Below are positions 965 to 23,012 of a stretch of 23,930 nucleotides of DNA, piece by piece. The DNA is from a virus: the IMG/VR virus record IMGVR_UViG_3300028840_000452, positions 1 to 23,930 of that record; one strand, 5' to 3'. Position numbers and translations under genes: made by a program. Each line of letters starts with the position of its first letter. Position 1 is the first letter of the stretch. The notes beneath the pieces are model-generated. The model worked only from the letters and a program-made list of their open reading frames with translations. It made no database searches and was not told the origin of the DNA.

Positions 965-3460
965 TCAGCGGGAGAGCTCCCAAACGATCTTGCGGAGCGC
1001 ATAGTGGCCGGAGCAAATCGTGTCGATCTCGACCCGGAGCGAGTTGTTGAGCCGGCCGAGACCGCCCTCCGTGATCTCGTCCGCTTCGAGGTAGGTCCAC
1101 GTCTCGCCGGTGAGCCCGGTCTCCGTGTGGATCAGCGTCCCGAGCTCGCCGTAGACCCGGATCGTGTACGTCGTCCCGTCCTCGGGAGCGTCGGTCTCGC
1201 CCGAGGTCGCGTAGCCCCAAACGCCGAGCCGGTTTCGGTGCGCCCAAGAGACGGTGAGCTCGCCGGTGATTGTCGCCGGGTAGCTGTCCCCGTTGAAGCG
1301 GACGTCGGTCGGACAGTAAGCGAGCTCGCGCCTCGCGGTCGAGAGTGCGGAGATCGTCTCCGTCGGGCAGGAGTCGATGTCGTAGCCGCCCATGTTATTG
1401 TACGGCTGAAACTTGATCCCCGTCGACCCGGAGCCCGGTATATGAACGACGCCGGACGAATAGCTGACGAACCAGATCCGCTTGCCGGACGCGAACGAGG
1501 TCGGCGCGGTGTCACAGCACCCGCGCGCGAGCCCGGTCAGCGTGATCGTGCCGGCGAGCTCGTTGATCGTGACGTTCTCGAAGGCGATTATCTCCTCCAG
1601 ATCGCTCTGCGTCGGGTCGGTCCCCTCGAAGATCAGCGCGAGATTGAGCCCGGCGTCGAACTCGGCCGAGTTGCGCGAGACGAGGCGCTCGGCGGCGTCG
1701 GTCCCGAGCGTCGCGTAGATCGTCGCCGAGGTCTCGTTGATCGCCGCGGAGAGCTCGGCGCTCGGCGTGAAGAACGGGAAGCGCGTCGACTCGTCCTCGA
1801 CGATCGCATTGTAGCCTTTCGAGATCCCGACCGACGCGCGCGACGCGAGCGTCAGAACCTGTTGCGCGCCTCCGTCGGGAACGGCGAGATTCTTTACGGC
1901 CTCGTAGGGACCGAGCGCGACGGCCTGATCCGCGAGCATCGGGACCGGCCCGGCCGGGTCGACCCACTCGGAATCATCCGGCGGCGTGTAGGCGGTCCAA
2001 TCAATCGCGAAGTAATCCTCGATCGCTTCGAGCTCGATCCGGCCGGAGACGAGCTCGCCTTTGCCGATCTGCTGGACCCGGCAGACCATCGACGAGATCC
2101 CGAGCTTCGGCCAATCGAGCTTGAACGGAGAGCCCGGTCGGAAGGACCACGCCGAGCGGTCGGCGTTGATCGAGAGCGTCGCGAGCGGATACGAGAGCCC
2201 GGCGAGCGCCTTCGACGCCGCGCGCGCCGCCGTCGCTTCGTGCGAGAAGCCGCGGAGATTGAGATCTTGCGTCGAGATCTCCCCGCCGGCGGCCTCGATC
2301 GCGGCTTGATTCTGAGCGATCACAGTCTTAGAGACGTAGCCGTCGCGCCGGTTGATGTACTGGACCCGGACCTGATTCTTGAGATCGGTCCACGCCGACC
2401 GCGCGTAAGCCGTGACGGTGCAGTTTGTCTCGTCGAGGACCGGGAGCTCCTCCTCGTCGTAGTCGAAGCGAACGAGGTCGAGCACCAGGAGCCCCGTCGA
2501 CGGCTCGACGTAGACGACGCCGTCAATGTGTCGCAGGATGTCGAGGAGAAGATCTTTCGCCGAGACCTCCGCGTCGACGAGCATCGAGAGCCCGAGCTCC
2601 TCCTCCGCGAGCGTCGTCCCGGCGGCGCGGAAGGAGTCGACGTCGATGTTCCCGACGGGGATCCCGAGCCCGTTGAGGCTCGGCGCGGTCGTGAGGAGAT
2701 CGTAGATCATGCAAGCGGGATTCGCGTCCTGGCCGATCCGATGATAGTCGAGCGGGAGCGAGAGCGAGTTAGGACAACGCCGGAGCTCGATCGCGACGTC
2801 CTTGATGTAGGGAGACGTCCCCCAATAGAAACCTGTGAGCGTCTGCGTTTCGTGCAGCCTGAAAACAGCGTAGCAGATTCCGCGATACGCCGGCAGATTC
2901 GAGGAGATCTTCTGCGCGAGGTAGTTGTCGATCGGCTGAGTCGTCGAGCCGCGGTAGACGAGGATGTCTCCCCACAGACCGCCCTCGCCGTCGACGCCGC
3001 CGAAGTACTCGAACGCCTGCACGTCGAAGCCGTCGTACTCGGAGCGCGAGTAGCGCGTGTAGCCCTCCTCGTAGAAGTGCGGGAGCGCGTTGCGATAGGG
3101 AAGCGGCTCGCCGTCGAACCACGGACGGAGCGCGGCGTCGATCTCTCCGGAGCAAAGAACGAGATTCATCCCGAGATAGTAGTCGTAGCCTTTGGTGACC
3201 GTCTCCGAAGTGAACCAGCCCGTAGAGATCTCCTCCTCGATCGGCGTCACCTTGAGATCACCGTACCACGCGAGCATCGGTCCGGAGCACAGGACCGTCC
3301 CCCACGCGACGGGGATCGGCCGGCCCTCGCCGGTCGTCGGGACTCGGAAGTCGGAGAGCCCGGCGGGATCCGGCGAGTCGAAGTTAGGCTTCGGCTTGAC
3401 GAGATCGTAGACGAGCGAGAGCCCGATCTGGATCAGCATCATCACCCACCACGCGACCAC
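965..3460 (-). CDS. Tail tip / hub protein (gpJ / GTA-hub-like)
   Basis: 831 residues. The start is taken as GTG at 3460, with AGGAGGT 6-7 nt upstream and 11 nt after the previous stop; the longer TTG start at 3481 would put the ribosome site inside the gene. The N-terminus is hydrophobic (VVAWWVMMLIQIGLSLVYDL), followed by a region with VAWGTVLCSGPMLAWYGDL typical of central tail-tip proteins that form the baseplate hub and tail opening. The central part resembles the hub of lambda-like and gene-transfer-agent tails. The last 130 residues or so (TVSWAHRNRLGVWGYA onward) look like a fibronectin-type III beta domain ending the molecule, where host contact would occur. It is the last gene of the tail operon, right after the BR0599-type gene. 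No separate NlpC/P60 peptidase gene is present beside it. Confidence 0.8.
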   Translation of the reverse strand: MVAWWVMMLIQIGLSLVYDLVKPKPNFDSPDPAGLSDFRVPTTGEGRPIPVAWGTVLCSGPMLAWYGDLKVTPIEEEISTGWFTSETVTKGYDYYLGMNLVLCSGEIDAALRPWFDGEPLPYRNALPHFYEEGYTRYSRSEYDGFDVQAFEYFGGVDGEGGLWGDILVYRGSTTQPIDNYLAQKISSNLPAYRGICYAVFRLHETQTLTGFYWGTSPYIKDVAIELRRCPNSLSLPLDYHRIGQDANPACMIYDLLTTAPSLNGLGIPVGNIDVDSFRAAGTTLAEEELGLSMLVDAEVSAKDLLLDILRHIDGVVYVEPSTGLLVLDLVRFDYDEEELPVLDETNCTVTAYARSAWTDLKNQVRVQYINRRDGYVSKTVIAQNQAAIEAAGGEISTQDLNLRGFSHEATAARAASKALAGLSYPLATLSINADRSAWSFRPGSPFKLDWPKLGISSMVCRVQQIGKGELVSGRIELEAIEDYFAIDWTAYTPPDDSEWVDPAGPVPMLADQAVALGPYEAVKNLAVPDGGAQQVLTLASRASVGISKGYNAIVEDESTRFPFFTPSAELSAAINETSATIYATLGTDAAERLVSRNSAEFDAGLNLALIFEGTDPTQSDLEEIIAFENVTINELAGTITLTGLARGCCDTAPTSFASGKRIWFVSYSSGVVHIPGSGSTGIKFQPYNNMGGYDIDSCPTETISALSTARRELAYCPTDVRFNGDSYPATITGELTVSWAHRNRLGVWGYATSGETDAPEDGTTYTIRVYGELGTLIHTETGLTGETWTYLEADEITEGGLGRLNNSLRVEIDTICSGHYALRKIVWELSR

Positions 3461-3471
3461 GGACCGACCTC

Positions 3472-4302
3472 CTAACCCCAAAGATGTCGCGAGTCCCAGG
3501 GAGTGTCTAGCCGAGAGCGAAAGACGTTCTTCCCCGGAATGTGCGACCAGCCGAGATGATTGATTAGATTGTTGAACTTGTCGAGGCAGGACGCCGCGCG
3601 GTGGCTACATCCCCAGTAAGCCCAACACTCGTCCAGCGATTCGAGCCCCGGCATCGGGGACAAGAGCGTGATCGTGTCCCCGACATGATCCGCGATAAAC
3701 CGCGTCTCGCCGTCCGGCGCCTGTAGCTTGCCGGCGCTGAACCATCCATCAGCGCGGAGCGCGAAGTCGTTCGAGGTCACCGTCCGGCCGGAGACCGTCG
3801 TGATCGTGACCGCGTCCCGGCAGGACGTCGGATTAGCTCCGCACCCGGCCGAGAAGAGCACGTGATTGCACGGCGTCTGCATCTGTAGCGGCGGGAATCC
3901 TCGCGTGAGCGCGGCCGCGATCGAGGTAGCCGTGAGCTCGACCTCCGTCTCCTCGAAGGCGGCGCGGACGATCTTCCCTGAGAAGATCGCGATCGCCTCC
4001 GTCTCGTCCCCGCGGTGCGCCCGGTAGTGAGTGAACCAGACCGGCGTCGAGGGACTCTCGGCGATAAAGAGCTCCGCGACGGGATTCGCGACCGGGAGCC
4101 GGAGCGAGAGCGTCTCGCCGGTGTCCTCCTTCGTTTGTCGGACCTCGCCGCGCGTGATCGTCTCCGGCGTGAACGTCCCGATCGGGAACGTAATCTCTCG
4201 ATCGGCCGAGGTATAGAGCCAGACGTCGTCACCCTGGACGAAGCGGAAGCCCTCGATCGGTTGCGCGCCGTAACGGGATTTCTCTCGATCGTCGTAAGCC
4301 AA
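3472..4302 (-). CDS. Phage_BR0599 / DUF2163-type tail protein
   Basis: 276 residues from a TTG start at 4302, supported by GGAGGG 7-8 nt upstream. The N-terminal two thirds are beta-rich (the DUF2163-like part). The C-terminal third has the family's cysteine-rich pattern: CNHVLFSAGCGANPTSC, the ADGWFSAGKL segment, and a closing CSHRAASCLDKFNNLINHLG followed by IPGKN. Proteins of this family sit between the distal tail protein and the hub in many siphophages and in gene transfer agents, and are thought to bind the hub. It lies 11 nt upstream of the hub start. The conserved cysteines may bind a metal or form disulfides; that is inference. Confidence 0.85.
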   Translation of the reverse strand: MAYDDREKSRYGAQPIEGFRFVQGDDVWLYTSADREITFPIGTFTPETITRGEVRQTKEDTGETLSLRLPVANPVAELFIAESPSTPVWFTHYRAHRGDETEAIAIFSGKIVRAAFEETEVELTATSIAAALTRGFPPLQMQTPCNHVLFSAGCGANPTSCRDAVTITTVSGRTVTSNDFALRADGWFSAGKLQAPDGETRFIADHVGDTITLLSPMPGLESLDECWAYWGCSHRAASCLDKFNNLINHLGWSHIPGKNVFRSRLDTPWDSRHLWG

Positions 4303-14525: not shown

Positions 14526-16487
14526 CTACGCGATCTTCGCGCCGGTCCCCTTCACGAAGCCCTGCGGGTGCAGGATCCCCACGTCGGCCATCGAGAACGA
14601 GATCAGCCTGACCTGGCCGTACTCGGCCTTCGAGGTCTCGTCGAGGACGATCTCCATCTCGTTCCCCCACAGACCGAAGGCGAGCTCGTTCCAGTTCCCG
14701 AAGATCAGCGCGTGCTCGTCCGAGCCGGCGCCGAGAACCTTCGAGCACTGATTTGTCGCGCCGGCGCGGTAGCCGATCATCTCGCCGTCGTTGATCTTCC
14801 CGTCCCAAATGAACTTCGGGTAGGTCGATCCGATCAGCGGCGTCCTCGACAGGACGGCGCCCATCAGCGCGGTCGTCATCCACGCGAGCGAACCGTAAGA
14901 AGCGTTCGCGTCGTGGACCAGACCGACGGCGGTCGTGAGCTCCGGGAGATCCGGGACGCCGGTGTACGCCTGACTCTGCACGTCCGCGGTGTGATAGATC
15001 CCGATCGGAGCGTTCGCGGTCCCGTCGCCGTGAATCGCAGCGAGGTCGAGCGCGGTCGCGTGACCGATCGCGAGCTCGTTCCGGATGTCGGCCTCGATGT
15101 CGATCGACGCCATCGTCAGAAGCTGACGAGGGATCTGCACGTGACCGATCAGCGACTTCGGCGACATGGTCGTGTAGCCGTACGTCGTCTGACTCGCCGT
15201 CGCGCCGCTCGCCGGATTCTCCTGCATCCAGTAGACCGTCGGCGCGCCGGTCTTCTTGTTGAAGTGGACGACGTCGCGGAGCCCGGTGTAGAGCCTCGCG
15301 CCGAACTCCAGACAGCGGGTCTTGTTGCGGAGAAGGTCGATCATCTCCGGCATGACCTGGTCGTTGACGAGCGTCGCGCCTCCGGCCGGCTCGCCGGTCC
15401 CGAGCGCGCGCGAGGAGAAGTCGTCGCGGCCGCGGAGCCGCCACGGGACGACGAGACCGCCCTTCGTCGGCTTCGCGCCCTCGCGGATCAGCTCCTGGTG
15501 GACTTCGAGCTCCAGCCCGTCGCGCTGGATCTGACCCGAAGCCATCGCCATCGCTCGCGCGTACGAGTACGCGCGCTTGTCCTTCTCCGGGACGGCCGTG
15601 AGACTCTCGGCCGGCGGCTGTGCCGGCCCGGTCGTCCGGATCTTGTCGAGGATGATCTTGCGGACCTTGTCCGGCGAGAGACCCTCGCGGACGAACTCGG
15701 CCGCGCGGTCGGTGAGACCGTGCTCCGCGCAGAGCTCGAAGATCTCCGCGGCCTCCTTCGAGACGTCGCGCGTGACCTCCGGCGCCGCCGGCTTCGGCGA
15801 CTCCGGATCCGTGCGGACGCCCTCGCCTTCTGCTACGAGCTTCGGATCCATGCTTCTCTCCCTCCCTTCGCCGGCCGGGACTTCGATCTTGAAGTCGACC
15901 AGCTGATCCTCGGGTACGTTCCTGACTGCCATCTGACTGAGCTCGGCCTCCCGCCCGAGCCCGACCGTCGGATCGGCCGGAATCGGGACGAGCGAGAGCT
16001 CGGCCGGCGCCCAACTAACGAGGTAGGTCGGGACGCCGTCCTCGTCCTCCTCCAGCAAGCGCATCCCTCGGACGAAGTAGCCGATCGACGTCGTCCGCAA
16101 ATGACCCTCGTCGACTAGAGTCTTCTGATCCTTCGCGAGCCTGATCGACGCGAACTTCAGGAGACCGCGGAGCCGTCGCGCGAGCGTGTCGATCCGGACG
16201 TCCTTGACGCTCCCGATCTGAGCTCGAACGTCGTGACCCTTGAGCGCCGGGAGTCCCTCCTCCGCTCGCGAGAGATCGACGTCGTCGGGATCGTGAGAGA
16301 GAACCTCGTAGTAGGCGCCATCCCACGACCAGCGCTTGACCTTGAACTCGCTCGACAGCGAGACCGGGTAGAGCTCCTCCTCCGTCCCGTCCTCGCGCGT
16401 CGAGATCTCGCGCTCTCCGACCTCGATCGCGAAGTCCCGCGTGAGCTTTCGCGGGATTCTGACTGTCCTCGTCTGACCGTTCATCAC
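14526..16487 (-). CDS. Fused prohead protease-major capsid protein (HK97 fold)
   Basis: 653 residues from GTG at 16487 (ATG one codon later also possible), with GGAGGGA upstream. Residues about 30-175 are an S78-type prohead protease: ALKGHD with catalytic His85, TTSIGYF with catalytic Ser134, and AELSLVPIPADP near 162-173, the usual strand after the active site. A charged linker of roughly 190-310 acts as the scaffold-like delta region, followed by the HK97-fold capsid domain (KRAYSYARAMAMASG near 318, YTTMSPKSLIGHVQIPRQ in the body, and IWDGKINDGEMIGYR toward the end). The protease matures the shell by cutting itself and the delta region. Such fusions are known in several phage lineages. 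This is the first gene of the minus-strand head-tail operon. Confidence 0.92.
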   Translation of the reverse strand: MMNGQTRTVRIPRKLTRDFAIEVGEREISTREDGTEEELYPVSLSSEFKVKRWSWDGAYYEVLSHDPDDVDLSRAEEGLPALKGHDVRAQIGSVKDVRIDTLARRLRGLLKFASIRLAKDQKTLVDEGHLRTTSIGYFVRGMRLLEEDEDGVPTYLVSWAPAELSLVPIPADPTVGLGREAELSQMAVRNVPEDQLVDFKIEVPAGEGRERSMDPKLVAEGEGVRTDPESPKPAAPEVTRDVSKEAAEIFELCAEHGLTDRAAEFVREGLSPDKVRKIILDKIRTTGPAQPPAESLTAVPEKDKRAYSYARAMAMASGQIQRDGLELEVHQELIREGAKPTKGGLVVPWRLRGRDDFSSRALGTGEPAGGATLVNDQVMPEMIDLLRNKTRCLEFGARLYTGLRDVVHFNKKTGAPTVYWMQENPASGATASQTTYGYTTMSPKSLIGHVQIPRQLLTMASIDIEADIRNELAIGHATALDLAAIHGDGTANAPIGIYHTADVQSQAYTGVPDLPELTTAVGLVHDANASYGSLAWMTTALMGAVLSRTPLIGSTYPKFIWDGKINDGEMIGYRAGATNQCSKVLGAGSDEHALIFGNWNELAFGLWGNEMEIVLDETSKAEYGQVRLISFSMADVGILHPQGFVKGTGAKIA

Positions 16488-16569
16488 ATTCTCGACTCCC
16501 TCCTCGCGCCGCGTGACTGTCTACGATACCGGGTCGACTCAATATCGGTGACGGGCGCCCTCCTCGTCG

Positions 16570-16617
16570 AGTCAAATCTCTTTTGACTTGCCGGCCGGAG
16601 ACCTCCGCGGCTACTCT
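16570..16617. promoter_or_regulatory. Divergent regulatory region between capsid and portal operons
   Basis: A dyad AGTCAAA (16570-16576) - 5 nt - TTTGACT (16582-16588) contains TTGACT on each strand, so both operons could use a -35-like hexamer within one operator. On the plus strand TTGCCG (16588-16593) and TACTCT (16612-16617) are spaced 18 bp. TACTCT fits TANNNT, and its last base is 7 nt before the ATG at 16625, so the plus-strand transcript may be leaderless. The ATG lacks a good nearby ribosome site, which agrees with that idea. No clear -10 box is visible for the capsid direction. Confidence 0.4.
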
Positions 16618-16624
16618 GGCCGAC

Positions 16625-17179
16625 ATGACTGACGAACTGACCGCGCTCCCGGAGTCGTTCGCGGCCGGGACAACGATCAAGTACACGAAGAGCTTCGCGA
16701 GCTATCCGGCCGACGACGGCTGGACCCTGACGCTCTACCTTGCCGGCGCGACGACGGAACATGTGGACGCCGTCGCCGACGGCGCGGCCTTCGACGTAAC
16801 GATCCCCGCGACCCTGACGAGCTCTCCCTTCCAGCCCGGTCTCTACAAATGGTCCGAGCGCGTCTCGAAGTCTGGCGAGGTCTACGAGGTCGGCTTCGGC
16901 GTCGTCGAGATCAAGGATAACCTCGCGGAAGCGACGGACGGGAGCTCTCAGGAATGGCTTGAGCGCGCGATCCCCGTCCTCCGCGCGCACGTCGAGGGAC
17001 GACTGACCGCCGGGATGCAGAGCTACTCCATCGCCGGCCGAGCGGTCTCGAAGATCCCCGTGAAGGAAGCGGTCGACCTGCTGACGTTGCTAGAGTCTCG
17101 CCTCAAGCGCCTCAAGCATCCCGGCCGGATCTCCCGTCCGGGTCTCGTCCAGATCGTAAAACCGGGGACCAATCAATGA
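16625..17179 (+). CDS. Head-completion protein: Ig-like domain plus gpW-like C-terminus
   Basis: 184 residues from ATG at 16625. The upstream TTG (16583) is rejected because it lies inside the promoter-like dyad and has no ribosome site. N-terminal 1-100 is an Ig-like beta domain (SFASYPADDGWTLTLYLAG, then FQPGLYKWSERVSKSGEVYEV). C-terminal part from 115 (ERAIPVLRAHVEGRLT, SYSIAGRAVSKIPVKEAVDLLTLLESRLKRL) resembles lambda gpW-type head-completion proteins, which plug the portal vertex for tail attachment. It overlaps the portal start by ATGA, the usual gpW-portal neighbourhood. Why it has an Ig-like domain is not known. Confidence 0.7.
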   Translation: MTDELTALPESFAAGTTIKYTKSFASYPADDGWTLTLYLAGATTEHVDAVADGAAFDVTIPATLTSSPFQPGLYKWSERVSKSGEVYEVGFGVVEIKDNLAEATDGSSQEWLERAIPVLRAHVEGRLTAGMQSYSIAGRAVSKIPVKEAVDLLTLLESRLKRLKHPGRISRPGLVQIVKPGTNQ

Positions 17180-18753
17180 CCCGCCGACCCTTCCACAAAC
17201 GGCTCGCACGTGCGTTTCGCCTCGCGGTCCGCGAGCTCCGACGGCCGACGACGCGAAACGCCTTCGCCGGCGCCGGCGTGAGCCGACTGCTCCTCGACTG
17301 GATCGCGACGTCTCGCTCGGCCGACGAGGAGATCAAAGGCGATCTCCGGAAGCTACGAGCGCGCGCGCGGGAGCTCGCGAGAAACAACAGCTACATCAAG
17401 CGCTACCTCCGGCTCCTCGTCGCGAACGTGCTCGGCCACGCCGGGATCCGTCTGCAAGCGGTCGTCCGCGGCCGCGACGGAGCGCTCGACCAGGAGACGA
17501 ACCGCAAGATCGAGACAGCCTACCGCGAGTTCGCCGACGGCCCGGTGACGGTCGACGGCCGGCTCAATCTCTACGAGGTCGACGATCTGATCCTCCGGAC
17601 GCTCGCGACCGACGGGGAAGCGATCGTCCGCTTCTGGCGCGGATCGGACGTCAATCCCTACGGGCTCGCGCTCCAGCTGATCGACTCCGACCTCCTCGAC
17701 GAGCGCTTCAATCGCGCGGCCTCGACCACGCAGAACGAGATCCGGCTCGGCGTCGAGGTCGACACCGTCGGCCGGCCGCTCGCCTACCACTTCTACGACA
17801 AGCCTCAGAGCGCCGCCCTCGTCTCGCCGGCCTCGCGTTATCGCGTTCCCGCCGGCGAAGTCGTCCACATCTACCGCGCGGATCGAGTCAACCAGACGCG
17901 CGGCGTCACCTGGCTTCACTCGATCATGGTCCCCGTCCACATGCTGGACGGCTACGAGGAGAGCGAAGCCGTCGCGTCGCGCGTGAGCTCGGCGAAAATG
18001 GGATTCATGGTCCAGACGAATCCCGAGTTCGGCGCGGCGCTCTCGACGGAAGGCGATTCGGGGACGTCGCCGGCGACGATCCAAGCGGCGCCGGGATCGT
18101 TCGAGATCCTCGATCCTGGCTACGACTTCAAGCCCTGGGATCCGGATCATCCGACGAGCCAGTTCTCCTCGTTCATAACTCAGATGGTGCGGAAGATCGC
18201 GAGCGGTCTCTCCGTCTTTGCGAACGTCCTCGGGAACGACGCGAGCGGCGTCAACTACTCCAGCTTCCGAGCGTTCTCCCTGATCGAGCGGGACGACTAT
18301 CGGCAGACACAGACCGACCTCGTCACTAAGTGGCGCGTCCCGCTCTACCGCGAGTTCCTTCGCTCGGCGATCTTGACCGGCGCGCTCCGGCTCCCGACGA
18401 GCCGCGCGGCCGACTACTACGCCGTCCGACATCGCGCGCGCGGGTGGTCGTGGATCGACCCGGAGAAGGAAGCGAAAGGCGCGGTCCTCGCGATCGAGAA
18501 TCAGCTGACCTCCCGAACGTCGATCCTCGCGGAGAAGGGGATCGACATCGAGGACGTCTTCGCGGAGATCAAAGCCGAGCGCGAGCTCGCGGTCTCCTAC
18601 GGGATCGAGCTCTCCTCCTCCTCGCCGGTCGACGAGCCGGCGACGAAGTCGGACGTCGAAGATCTCGCCGAGGGACGCGAGCGCGACGGATCAAACGGCG
18701 GCGCCGGCAAGCCCCGGCCCGTCGAGGACCGGCGCCTGATCGCCGGATGTTAG
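17176..18753 (+). CDS. Portal protein, lambda gpB family
   Basis: 525 residues from ATG at 17176. The portal is the dodecameric DNA gate of the head. The first 80 residues are basic, then RNNSYIKRYLRLLVANVLG, LATDGEAIVRFWR around 140-152, LQLIDSDLLDERFN, and the conserved late motif GVNYSSFRA (N360) followed by an arginine/aspartate-rich helix, all typical of the lambda-type portal. The C-terminal 40 residues are charged and low-complexity, ending in Arg- and Gly-rich sequence. It is transcribed away from the capsid gene, so assembly genes that normally sit together are split between two opposite operons. Confidence 0.93.
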   Translation: MTRRPFHKRLARAFRLAVRELRRPTTRNAFAGAGVSRLLLDWIATSRSADEEIKGDLRKLRARARELARNNSYIKRYLRLLVANVLGHAGIRLQAVVRGRDGALDQETNRKIETAYREFADGPVTVDGRLNLYEVDDLILRTLATDGEAIVRFWRGSDVNPYGLALQLIDSDLLDERFNRAASTTQNEIRLGVEVDTVGRPLAYHFYDKPQSAALVSPASRYRVPAGEVVHIYRADRVNQTRGVTWLHSIMVPVHMLDGYEESEAVASRVSSAKMGFMVQTNPEFGAALSTEGDSGTSPATIQAAPGSFEILDPGYDFKPWDPDHPTSQFSSFITQMVRKIASGLSVFANVLGNDASGVNYSSFRAFSLIERDDYRQTQTDLVTKWRVPLYREFLRSAILTGALRLPTSRAADYYAVRHRARGWSWIDPEKEAKGAVLAIENQLTSRTSILAEKGIDIEDVFAEIKAERELAVSYGIELSSSSPVDEPATKSDVEDLAEGRERDGSNGGAGKPRPVEDRRLIAGC

Positions 18754-19270: not shown

Positions 19271-20374
19271 ATGCTCGATCAATACACGTTCGAGTTCGAC
19301 AACGCCAACTCCGGCTACATTTTCAAGGTCGGCAGCTACTACGCGAAGGCTACCGGGTGGAGCAACTGCAACGCCGGCCAGAGCGTGACCTCGGGGATCA
19401 CGTTCGGCGCCTTCTTCCGATTCGATACGTCCTCCCTCCCCGACCACGCTCAAATCGAGTGGGTGAAGTTCCGTGTTCGCGGCTACCGGAACGCCCCGGC
19501 CGGCTCGCCGCAGTTTTTCGAGCTCCGTCTCCGCTTCGGCGACATCATAGGCGGGACGCTCGACGGGACCGCGGCCGAGTGGAGCGCCGGCTCCCACATG
19601 CTGACCCTGACGGCGAAGCCGGCAGACAAGACGACGCTCGACCTGAGCGACGACGGTAACGATCCGCTCGTCCTCGTCAACAAGAGCGGCGACTCCGACG
19701 TCTCGATCATCGACCACGGTACGCAAGGGACCGGCGACTCGGCCTGGTGGTCGTTCTTCAATGTCGACACCGACACCCGATGCAAGCTGTACGTCGGGTT
19801 CTCCGTCCCGTCGGCGACGCTCTCGGGCTCGGGCTCTCTGACCTGTTCGGCCGAAGTGATCCGCGGCGGGAGAGCGGAGCTCGCCGGCGCGGGAGAGCTC
19901 GACGCCGACGGAGACCTGATCGCTGACGGGAGCGCGGAGCTCGCCGGCGCGGGAGAGCTCGACGCCCTCGGCGGCGTCCTGTTCGCGACGGCCTCCGCGG
20001 AGCTCGTAGGCTCCGGAGAGCTCGTCTCCCTCGCGACCGTCGAGCGGCTTTGCTCGGCCACCCTGGCCGGCGTCGGAGAGCTCGACGCCGCGGCCGGCCC
20101 GATCATCTACGGCGGGATCGCGACGCTCGAAGGCAGCGGCGATCTAATAGCCGGCGCGGGAATCCTACACTCTACCGCGGCCGCGACGCTGACGGGGATC
20201 GGTGAGATCTTCGTCGCCGGCGGGATCGCCGTCCCTCCGCTCGCGCTTCACTCGGCGACGATCGCCGTCGCCGCGACCGATTCCGATTCAATCGCCGTCG
20301 GCGCCGTCGACTCCGGGACGATCTCCGTCGCGGACGGCGACGCCCTGACCGTAGGACCGAGGAGAAACACATGA
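19271..20374 (+). CDS. Fibre-like protein with seven ~20-residue repeats
   Basis: 367 residues from ATG at 19271. Residues 1-180 form a beta-sandwich domain (GAFFRFDTSSLPDHAQIEWVKFRVRGY) resembling DNRLRE-type domains found in surface proteins. From about 182 to 316 there are seven repeats of about 20-21 residues, each beginning A-(T/E)-L-x-G-x-G-(E/S/D)-(L/I), at about 182, 202, 222, 243, 263, 284 and 305. The gene shows matching 60-bp DNA repeats. Repetitive glycine-rich beta strands suggest a stacked fibre shaft. The last 40 residues are polar and serine-rich. It overlaps the next gene by ATGA. Function as a receptor-binding or decorating fibre is inference. Confidence 0.6.
   Translation: MLDQYTFEFDNANSGYIFKVGSYYAKATGWSNCNAGQSVTSGITFGAFFRFDTSSLPDHAQIEWVKFRVRGYRNAPAGSPQFFELRLRFGDIIGGTLDGTAAEWSAGSHMLTLTAKPADKTTLDLSDDGNDPLVLVNKSGDSDVSIIDHGTQGTGDSAWWSFFNVDTDTRCKLYVGFSVPSATLSGSGSLTCSAEVIRGGRAELAGAGELDADGDLIADGSAELAGAGELDALGGVLFATASAELVGSGELVSLATVERLCSATLAGVGELDAAAGPIIYGGIATLEGSGDLIAGAGILHSTAAATLTGIGEIFVAGGIAVPPLALHSATIAVAATDSDSIAVGAVDSGTISVADGDALTVGPRRNT
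19868..19966 (+). repeat. 60-bp tandem repeat inside the fibre-like gene
   Basis: The 39-bp blocks 19868-19906 and 19928-19966 differ at one position and are offset by exactly 60 bp, which encodes 20 residues. They encode the second and third protein repeats almost identically, suggesting recent duplication by unequal recombination, while the other five repeats are diverged at both DNA and protein level. Confidence 0.85.
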
Positions 20375-21104: not shown

Positions 21105-21596
21105 ATGAGCTCCCGCGAGACGTTCGACAAAGCGATCGAGATCGTCCTCGCCCACGAAGGCGGCTACTCCGATCACCCCGCGGACGGCGGCGGCGCCACG
21201 AACTACGGGATCAGCTCCCGAGCTAATCCCGACGTCGACGTCGCGAACCTGACCCGCGAGGACGCGATCGAGATCTACTGGACACGCTACTGGACCGGGA
21301 ATCGTTACGAGCTCCTCCCGGAGCGGATCGCGATCAAGGTCTTCGACCTGGCTGTCAACATGGGCAGGAACACGGCGATCTGCTGTCTCCAGCGCGCGCT
21401 TCGCGCGGTCGGTCAGCAGGTAGCCGTCGACGGAGTCGTCGGTCCCGAGACCGCCGGCGCCGCGTCCTCCCTTTGCGAGCTCGCGATCATCGCGGCGCTT
21501 CGGTCGGAAGCGGCCGGCGAGTATAGAGCGATCCTGATCCGGAATCCTTCGCAAGCCCCGTTTGCCTCCGGGTGGATCTCCCGAGCCTATTCGTGA
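21105..21596 (+). CDS. Endolysin: glycoside hydrolase family 108 with peptidoglycan-binding domain
   Basis: 163 residues from ATG at 21105; GAGGTAGAG lies just upstream. N-terminal half has the GH108 signature HEGGYSDHPADGGGATNYGI (Glu18 as acid, then the D/N-rich loop with G-G-x-T-N-Y-G-I), and RYWTGNRYELLPERIAIKVFDLAVNMG further on. The C-terminal part (about 100-160: GQQVAVDGVVGPETAGA) is the PG_binding_3 motif that often follows in this family. The enzyme cuts glycan strands of the host cell wall for lysis. No signal peptide is seen, so it needs a holin. It is the last gene of the plus-strand operon. Confidence 0.9.
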   Translation: MSSRETFDKAIEIVLAHEGGYSDHPADGGGATNYGISSRANPDVDVANLTREDAIEIYWTRYWTGNRYELLPERIAIKVFDLAVNMGRNTAICCLQRALRAVGQQVAVDGVVGPETAGAASSLCELAIIAALRSEAAGEYRAILIRNPSQAPFASGWISRAYS

Positions 21597-21862: not shown

Positions 21863-21895
21863 CGCGACATCCTCGCGACATCTCCGCGACATCGA
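21863..21895. repeat. Three 11-bp iterons, CGCGACATC core
   Basis: The 9-mer CGCGACATC repeats at 21863, 21874 and 21885 with an 11-bp period, the last two bases of each unit differing (CT, TC, GA). Iterons at about one helical turn spacing are typical binding arrays for replication initiators. They lie 38 bp before the first DnaA-box-like sequence. Confidence 0.6.
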
Positions 21896-21932
21896 GCCCC
21901 GAGAGCCCCGAGATCGGCCTTCCCGAGCCGAT

Positions 21933-22172
21933 TGTGGACAAGCCGTTGATAACTCCTCCGGAATCGGTTGATAGCCGGTGAGCAACTCGGGTGATTTCGT
22001 GGACATCTCGACCCCGAGACCGGCCTGTGGACAGCTGTCCAGAGTAATCCCCGAGATATGCACAGACCCCGAGAGCCCGGAAGCCCCGCGGCGTAGGCGC
22101 TCCCGGCGCTTATCCACTTATCCACCGCCCCTACTACTACTAGATGTTAGATGTTAGGTAGAGAACTACAAC
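21933..22172. other. Origin-like region: DnaA-box cluster and DnaA-trio-like CTA repeats
   Basis: Sequences close to the DnaA box (TTATNCACA) occur at 21933-21941 (TGTGGACAA, reverse), 21998-22006 (weak), 22026-22034 (TGTGGACAG, reverse), 22056-22064 (ATATGCACA), 22110-22118 (TTATCCACT) and 22118-22126 (TTATCCACC). The last two are followed by a short GC-rich spacer (22126-22130), then CTA CTA CTA CTA (22131-22142), and an AT-richer stretch with two GATGTTA repeats (22143-22156). This order is the DnaA-box / GC spacer / DnaA-trio arrangement of the basal unwinding unit described in B. subtilis oriC. No long coding frame is convincing across 21597-22355. Function as a phage origin is inference. 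Confidence 0.6.
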
Positions 22173-22221
22173 AGCAGGAGCCCCGAGGAGCGAGCTCGCG
22201 GTCGAGGATCTCGACCGTCCC

Positions 22222-22532: not shown

Positions 22533-23012
22533 TCACTCGATCGGCGAGAGATCGACGACGCTCGCGAGGACTCCTTTCTGCCACTCCCCCGTCGAGAAGT
22601 CCCAACGCAAGAAGGGACCGACGTTGACTCCGAAGTACTCAGCCCAGTGGACCTCGACGCCGTAGTCTCGGAGATTCCCGAGATCGTAGGTCAGCGCGAT
22701 CAGCCCTCCCGTCGGACCGTCCTTCTCGTTAGGATTCACTTCGATCCCGACCTCCAGCGTTACGACCCGGTAGGAGATCGGCGTCAGATTGATGTATTGC
22801 GTCCACTCCTCGCGGTCGGTGTTCCAGAGAAAGCCCGCGTGAACCGGGATCGACGCCGTCCAATCGTCGACGACGTCCTCCGTCTCCGCGTCCTCCGCGG
22901 TCGACGTAGCCTCCGGAGCCGGCGCCGCGGCGCCGTCCTCCGCGAGCGCGACGGAGATCGGACCGCCGAGCCCGAGGAGCACCAGGACGAACAGCACGAC
23001 GAGAGATCTCAT
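22533..23012 (-). CDS. Secreted beta-rich protein with signal peptide
   Basis: 159 residues from ATG at 23012, with GGAGG 5-6 nt upstream. The N-terminus is a signal peptide: Met-Arg, then LVVLFVLVLLGLGG and a VALA cut site before EDG (after residue 24). A 25-residue acidic/Ala-Pro linker follows. Residues about 50-159 alternate hydrophobic and polar (SIPVHAGFLWNTDREEWTQY, then SYRVVTLEVGIEVNPNE, GGLIALTYDLGNLRDYGVEV, YFGVNVGPFLRWDFSTG), about eight beta strands, as in small outer-membrane barrels or periplasmic beta sandwiches. No lipobox cysteine, so it is not an ordinary outer spanin. Exported proteins of this kind in phages may modify the envelope or block superinfection; that is conjecture. 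Confidence 0.65.
   Translation of the reverse strand: MRSLVVLFVLVLLGLGGPISVALAEDGAAAPAPEATSTAEDAETEDVVDDWTASIPVHAGFLWNTDREEWTQYINLTPISYRVVTLEVGIEVNPNEKDGPTGGLIALTYDLGNLRDYGVEVHWAEYFGVNVGPFLRWDFSTGEWQKGVLASVVDLSPIE

Follow-up and report, generated by a model that had tools for sequence, protein, structure and literature searches.

A candidate DnaA-driven replication origin in an uncultured phage with the layout of the bacterial basal unwinding system

An apparently non-coding region of an uncultured phage carries tandem DnaA boxes, a GC-rich spacer and a DnaA-trio run, and this region is probably a phage replication origin that is built on the unwinding module of bacterial chromosome origins and driven by DnaA. 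The initial annotation had claimed the order of DnaA box, GC cluster and DnaA-trio known from bacterial oriC. The claim passed all of the computational tests, and the oriC-like reading is backed by the geometry of the module, by its conservation in place in a diverged relative, by a minimum of duplex stability and by a signature of dnaA/dnaN origins.

Setting and structure of the module

The window, that is, the whole stretch of DNA that was analysed, is a viral record of 23,930 bp from an uncultured phage. It includes a tailed-phage structural block with a fused protease/major capsid protein, a portal, a tape measure, a J-like tail protein and a GH108 endolysin. The module lies in about 0.9 kb of apparently non-coding DNA that extends from the end of the endolysin gene at 21596 to a small gene on the minus strand (22533-23012), and phage genes flank it on either side. 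DnaA was not found among the genes of the window. It is also true, as had been noted earlier, that no phage replication protein is seen in the window, but this carries little weight in a fragmentary record. A blastn search of the region against GenBank phages gave no match, and the terminase and capsid matches of the window were distant and scattered over many hosts, giving no host assignment.

Some other features of the window were observed. In 14526-18753, the portal and the following genes are on the plus strand and the capsid and tail genes on the minus strand, so that the structural block is divided in an unusual, divergent way; the same split was found in the diverged relative L094 described below. 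Internal repeats of about 60 bp are located at 19857-20093, inside the ORF 19271-20374, and appeared as off-diagonal matches against a near-identical contig. In addition, an intergenic repeat family around TCGCCTGTGAGCGACGATCTC is common to the window (21765, 22234 and 23525) and the distant relative, with copies in L055 (12745) and in the reverse-complemented record of L094, G023 (27768).

The sequence of the module at 22109-22142 is C-TTATCCACTTATCCACC-GCCC-CTACTACTACTA (table 1). Thus, the two overlapping boxes, GC-rich spacer and fourfold CTA described in the initial annotation were all confirmed, and so were four further box-like sites upstream, each with two mismatches at most. The CTA run is the only one of four units in the window.

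Table 1. Features of the candidate origin region (positions in the window)
Feature	Position	Strand	Remark
Three direct repeats CGCGACATC, 11-bp period	21863-21893		starts 21863, 21874, 21885; unit differs in L094
Upstream DnaA box (TTGTCCACA)	21933-21941	-	1 mismatch
Weak DnaA-box-like site (TTATCAACG)	21944-21952	-	2 mismatches
Weak DnaA-box-like site (CTGTCCACA)	22026-22034	-	2 mismatches
Weak DnaA-box-like site (ATATGCACA)	22056-22064	+	2 mismatches
DnaA box 1 (TTATCCACT), upstream one of the tandem pair	22110-22118	+	1 mismatch to TTATCCACA
DnaA box 2 (TTATCCACC)	22118-22126	+	1 mismatch to TTATCCACA; 1-base overlap with box 1
GC spacer GCCC	22127-22130	+	
DnaA-trio run	22131-22142	-	CTA x4 on plus strand, 3'-GAT-5' x4 on minus strand
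Probable DNA unwinding element	22130-22174		least stable 45-bp segment of window; nearest-neighbour stability minimum at 22130

The basal unwinding system (BUS) of bacterial chromosomes was described by Pelliciari et al. (2021, PMC8287927) as tandem DnaA boxes with mismatch limits of 2 and 4, a GC-rich gap averaging 4 bp, and three or more trios that have a central A and the consensus 3'-GAT. Counted from the better box, the distance to the first trio peaks at 10-13 bp and does not exceed 16 bp. In the window, the two boxes have one mismatch each, the distance from the end of box 1 to the first trio is 12 bp, and four perfect trios lie on the correct strand. That each box is one base off TTATCCACA counts against an origin. 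As to chance, 6 of the 16 boxes of the window (at most two mismatches) fall inside 200 bp here, and the maximum in 300 Markov simulations of the window was 3. When the 24-kb window was shuffled 200 times, a box with at most one mismatch was never followed within 16 bp by CTA x3.

The trio run is also placed on weak duplex. The stability minimum of the entire 23.9-kb window starts exactly at the trio, and the least stable segment is 64% AT, against a background of 34% AT. In L094, the minimum is likewise on the trio, and many records have no 45-bp segment weaker than that of the trio. Among phage sites with clustered boxes, 18 of 21 were in the least stable 1% of their own locus, against 0 of 13 chance-like matches. 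The GC skew showed no consistent turn at module sites, which speaks against an origin.

Conservation and recurrence

The initial annotation had proposed that loss of the CTA repeats and boxes in close relatives would speak against it; both are kept in the two relatives, L012 and L094. In L012, a contig 99.7% identical to the window, the spacer GCCC is changed to GGTC, and the boxes and trios are unchanged. L094 is a syntenic but diverged relative (identities of 58% for the portal, 63% for the lysozyme, 52% for the capsid and 67% for the terminase), in which the equivalent position reads TTGTCCACTTGTCCACGGGCCCTACTACTACTACTA. The module is in place there with the layout TTGTCCACTTGTCCAC-GGGCC-CTAx5; box 1 is TTGTCCACT and box 2 is TTGTCCACG, so that both boxes carry the identical A-to-G change, and the trio run is longer by one unit. 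Between the window and L094, the module is 88% identical, whereas the intergenic region reaches 48% and none of its other 36-bp stretches exceeds 67%. L094 was missed by the TTATCCAC-type pattern and was recovered using degenerate boxes. More distant portal relatives (29-38% identity) showed no recognisable module in the portions that were examined, a further point against the origin reading. The record of L094 (G023, reverse-complemented 2010-4288) also encodes QueC, a QueE-like radical SAM protein, QueD/PTPS and GTP cyclohydrolase I; judged from these genes of the 7-deazaguanine pathway, the phage group of L094 may modify its guanines.

The combination had been regarded as not a common design, and it proved to be commoner than was supposed, recurring in unrelated phages. 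For instance, an exact 32-bp match of the module adjoins an ERF recombination gene in L013, a 42-kb phage contig without other DNA similarity to the window. About 20 viral contigs carry the module: a scan with a pattern of these parts gave 17 matches, against 2 for a control with the trio on the wrong strand. A second pattern gave 27 viral matches. When 20 records were scanned over their whole length, each had the pattern at one place, and none had the backward control. In addition, extra boxes near the 54 matches of all patterns were placed mainly upstream (75 in 300 bp upstream against 11 downstream), and two or more extra boxes were found upstream in 19 contigs and downstream in 2. The genes next to the modules included ERF, PD-(D/E)XK nucleases and, once, DnaB at a distance of about 100 bp. 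This recurrence suggests that many phages begin their own copying via host DnaA.

Some candidates were set aside. About half of the looser viral matches were without an extra box and were treated as chance, as were several coding-region matches without extra boxes from the viral scans with TTGTCCAC and TTTCCACA. Most plasmid matches consisted of the tandem box pair and had no trio run. An opposed second trio run (TAGTAG) lies downstream of the module in L013 and L094, and it was rejected as a general part of the module, being not clearly enriched across sites. GenBank MT836079 (L031), filed as 'Bacteriophage sp.', encodes DnaA, DnaN and RecF and is apparently bacterial; its module is located between dnaA and dnaN, and we rejected it as a phage match and kept it as a positive control.

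In bacterial genomes, the strict pattern TTATCCAC-N(0-14)-CCCCTACTACTAC had at least 115 matches. Among the matches listed, 71 of 80 bacterial loci had dnaA or dnaN within 3 kb; thus, such a sequence in a bacterium mainly marks the chromosome origin, to which the phage module is equivalent. The listed loci span Clostridia, Streptomyces, Paenibacillus, Thermus, Bdellovibrionales, Poribacteria and others, in an uneven taxonomic sample. One of the bacterial loci (L176) is identical to the window module at 33 of 36 positions.

Complete circular genomes of gokushoviruses (ssDNA Microviridae) have TTATCCACATTTCCACAGCACCCTACTACTACTA or TTTTCAACTTTTCCACAGCCCCTACTACTACTA-like sequences in their non-coding DNA beside VP4, with repeated TTTTCAACA or TTATCCACA sites ahead of them. 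Among the genomes examined (loci L029, L030 and L236-L240), the module is on the gene strand in three (KT264804, KT264800 and MG945867) and on the strand opposite the genes in four (KT264798, KX513868, MG945694 and MT135259). Because it occurs in either gene orientation, the gokushovirus module most likely acts on the double-stranded form.

Mode of action and alternative explanations

We propose that host DnaA would bind the tandem pair (22110-22126) and the boxes upstream of it, and that a DnaA filament would extend over the GC spacer onto the minus-strand 3'-GAT trios (22131-22142) and open the adjoining weak duplex (22130-22174). The host helicase could then be loaded, and the DNA of the phage or prophage would enter theta replication, with this site as the presumable main origin of the phage.

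An improbable alternative is a plasmid-type origin of the P1/F/RK2 kind, in which a phage initiator encoded outside the window binds the repeats and opens the DNA, and DnaA only assists. The initial annotation had claimed that the phage carries its own iterons. The three repeats at 11-bp spacing are indeed present, and both the window and L094 have short tandem repeats at 220-250 bp upstream of their boxes, as this explanation expects; in a Pantoea plasmid, a gene for replication initiation also has a similar tandem box pair about 280 bp upstream of it. However, the unit and period differ (CGCGACATC and 11 bp in the window, GTGACGCTC and 9 bp in L094), whereas the boxes, spacer and trios are kept, and the iteron reading is unsupported because L094 is without the CGCGACATC unit. 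In addition, no initiator of Rep_3, the only Rep family searched, was found in the 19 module-bearing records, which are possibly incomplete. Furthermore, runs of trios are the hallmark of opening driven by DnaA (PMC8287927), and the scheme of plasmid origins given in PMC10797057 has no DnaA-trios. DnaA was found in none of the 19 records, a phage O protein in 1 of 19 and DnaB in 3 of 20 of the records, all of them possibly incomplete, so that a phage initiator or helicase may be out of view.

The site is intergenic, which would also suit a DnaA decoy or a DnaA-controlled promoter, where the boxes sequester host DnaA or control a neighbouring gene and no strand is opened. Clusters of boxes can titrate DnaA or regulate genes. 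Such a site, which we consider very unlikely here, requires neither trios that run on the correct strand at a fixed distance nor the weakest duplex alongside the boxes. Thus, since the trios and their spacing are conserved and the repeats are not, both the decoy and the initiator-driven origin fit worse than opening by DnaA. Least likely is that the motif arose by chance, or that a piece of a bacterial chromosome was filed as phage by mistake. The random appearance of about half of the looser matches without an extra box and the misfiled dnaA-dnaN-recF fragment show that both do occur. However, shuffles and simulations failed to reproduce the module, complete circular gokushovirus genomes carry it, and it lies among phage genes; its conservation in place in the syntenic relative L094 largely refutes this explanation.

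Beyond the window, a wider proposal is tentative and lies somewhat on the doubtful side: a wide range of phages, both tailed dsDNA phages and gokushoviruses, may lack an initiator for DNA opening and may rely on a complete and portable copy of the chromosomal DnaA-trio module for the start of duplex replication, as their main origin, and their box variants may match those of the host. Unwinding by DnaA-trios has been described for bacterial chromosomes (PMC8287927). Among the open-access papers searched, we found none that connects phages with the basal unwinding system or gokushoviruses with DnaA boxes. If phages carry a minimal working copy, these would be natural stripped-down test pieces for the opening of DNA by DnaA. 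Phage replication would be tied to the cell-cycle initiator of the host, and the box variants could aid host prediction for uncultured phages. For the ssDNA gokushoviruses, a DnaA origin would add an unexpected route for copying the duplex form.

Comparison with known origins

In origins of the lambda type, the O protein binds iterons inside the O gene. The window resembles them in that a phage origin is expected to recruit the host helicase. However, the recognition sites here are DnaA boxes, and no O homologue was found in 18 of the 19 module records. In the origins of P1, F and RK2, opening is driven by Rep and DnaA is a helper. P1 oriR, F and RK2 oriV, as DnaA-assisted iteron origins, share with the window DnaA boxes in an extrachromosomal or phage replicon and short repeats nearby, but the repeats of the window are not conserved, and its records show no Rep_3 initiator. 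The closest likeness is to the BUS of bacterial chromosome origins, with which the window has in common tandem DnaA boxes, a spacing of 12 bp from the upstream box, a GC gap of 4 bp, at least three 3'-GAT trios and weak duplex alongside. Opening by the BUS depends on DnaA and requires boxes and trios alike; of this, the window shows the weak duplex. In contrast to the chromosomal oriC, which lies on the host chromosome beside dnaA/dnaN or other origin genes, the candidate origin of the window is borne by a phage away from dnaA/dnaN and has boxes that overlap by one base.
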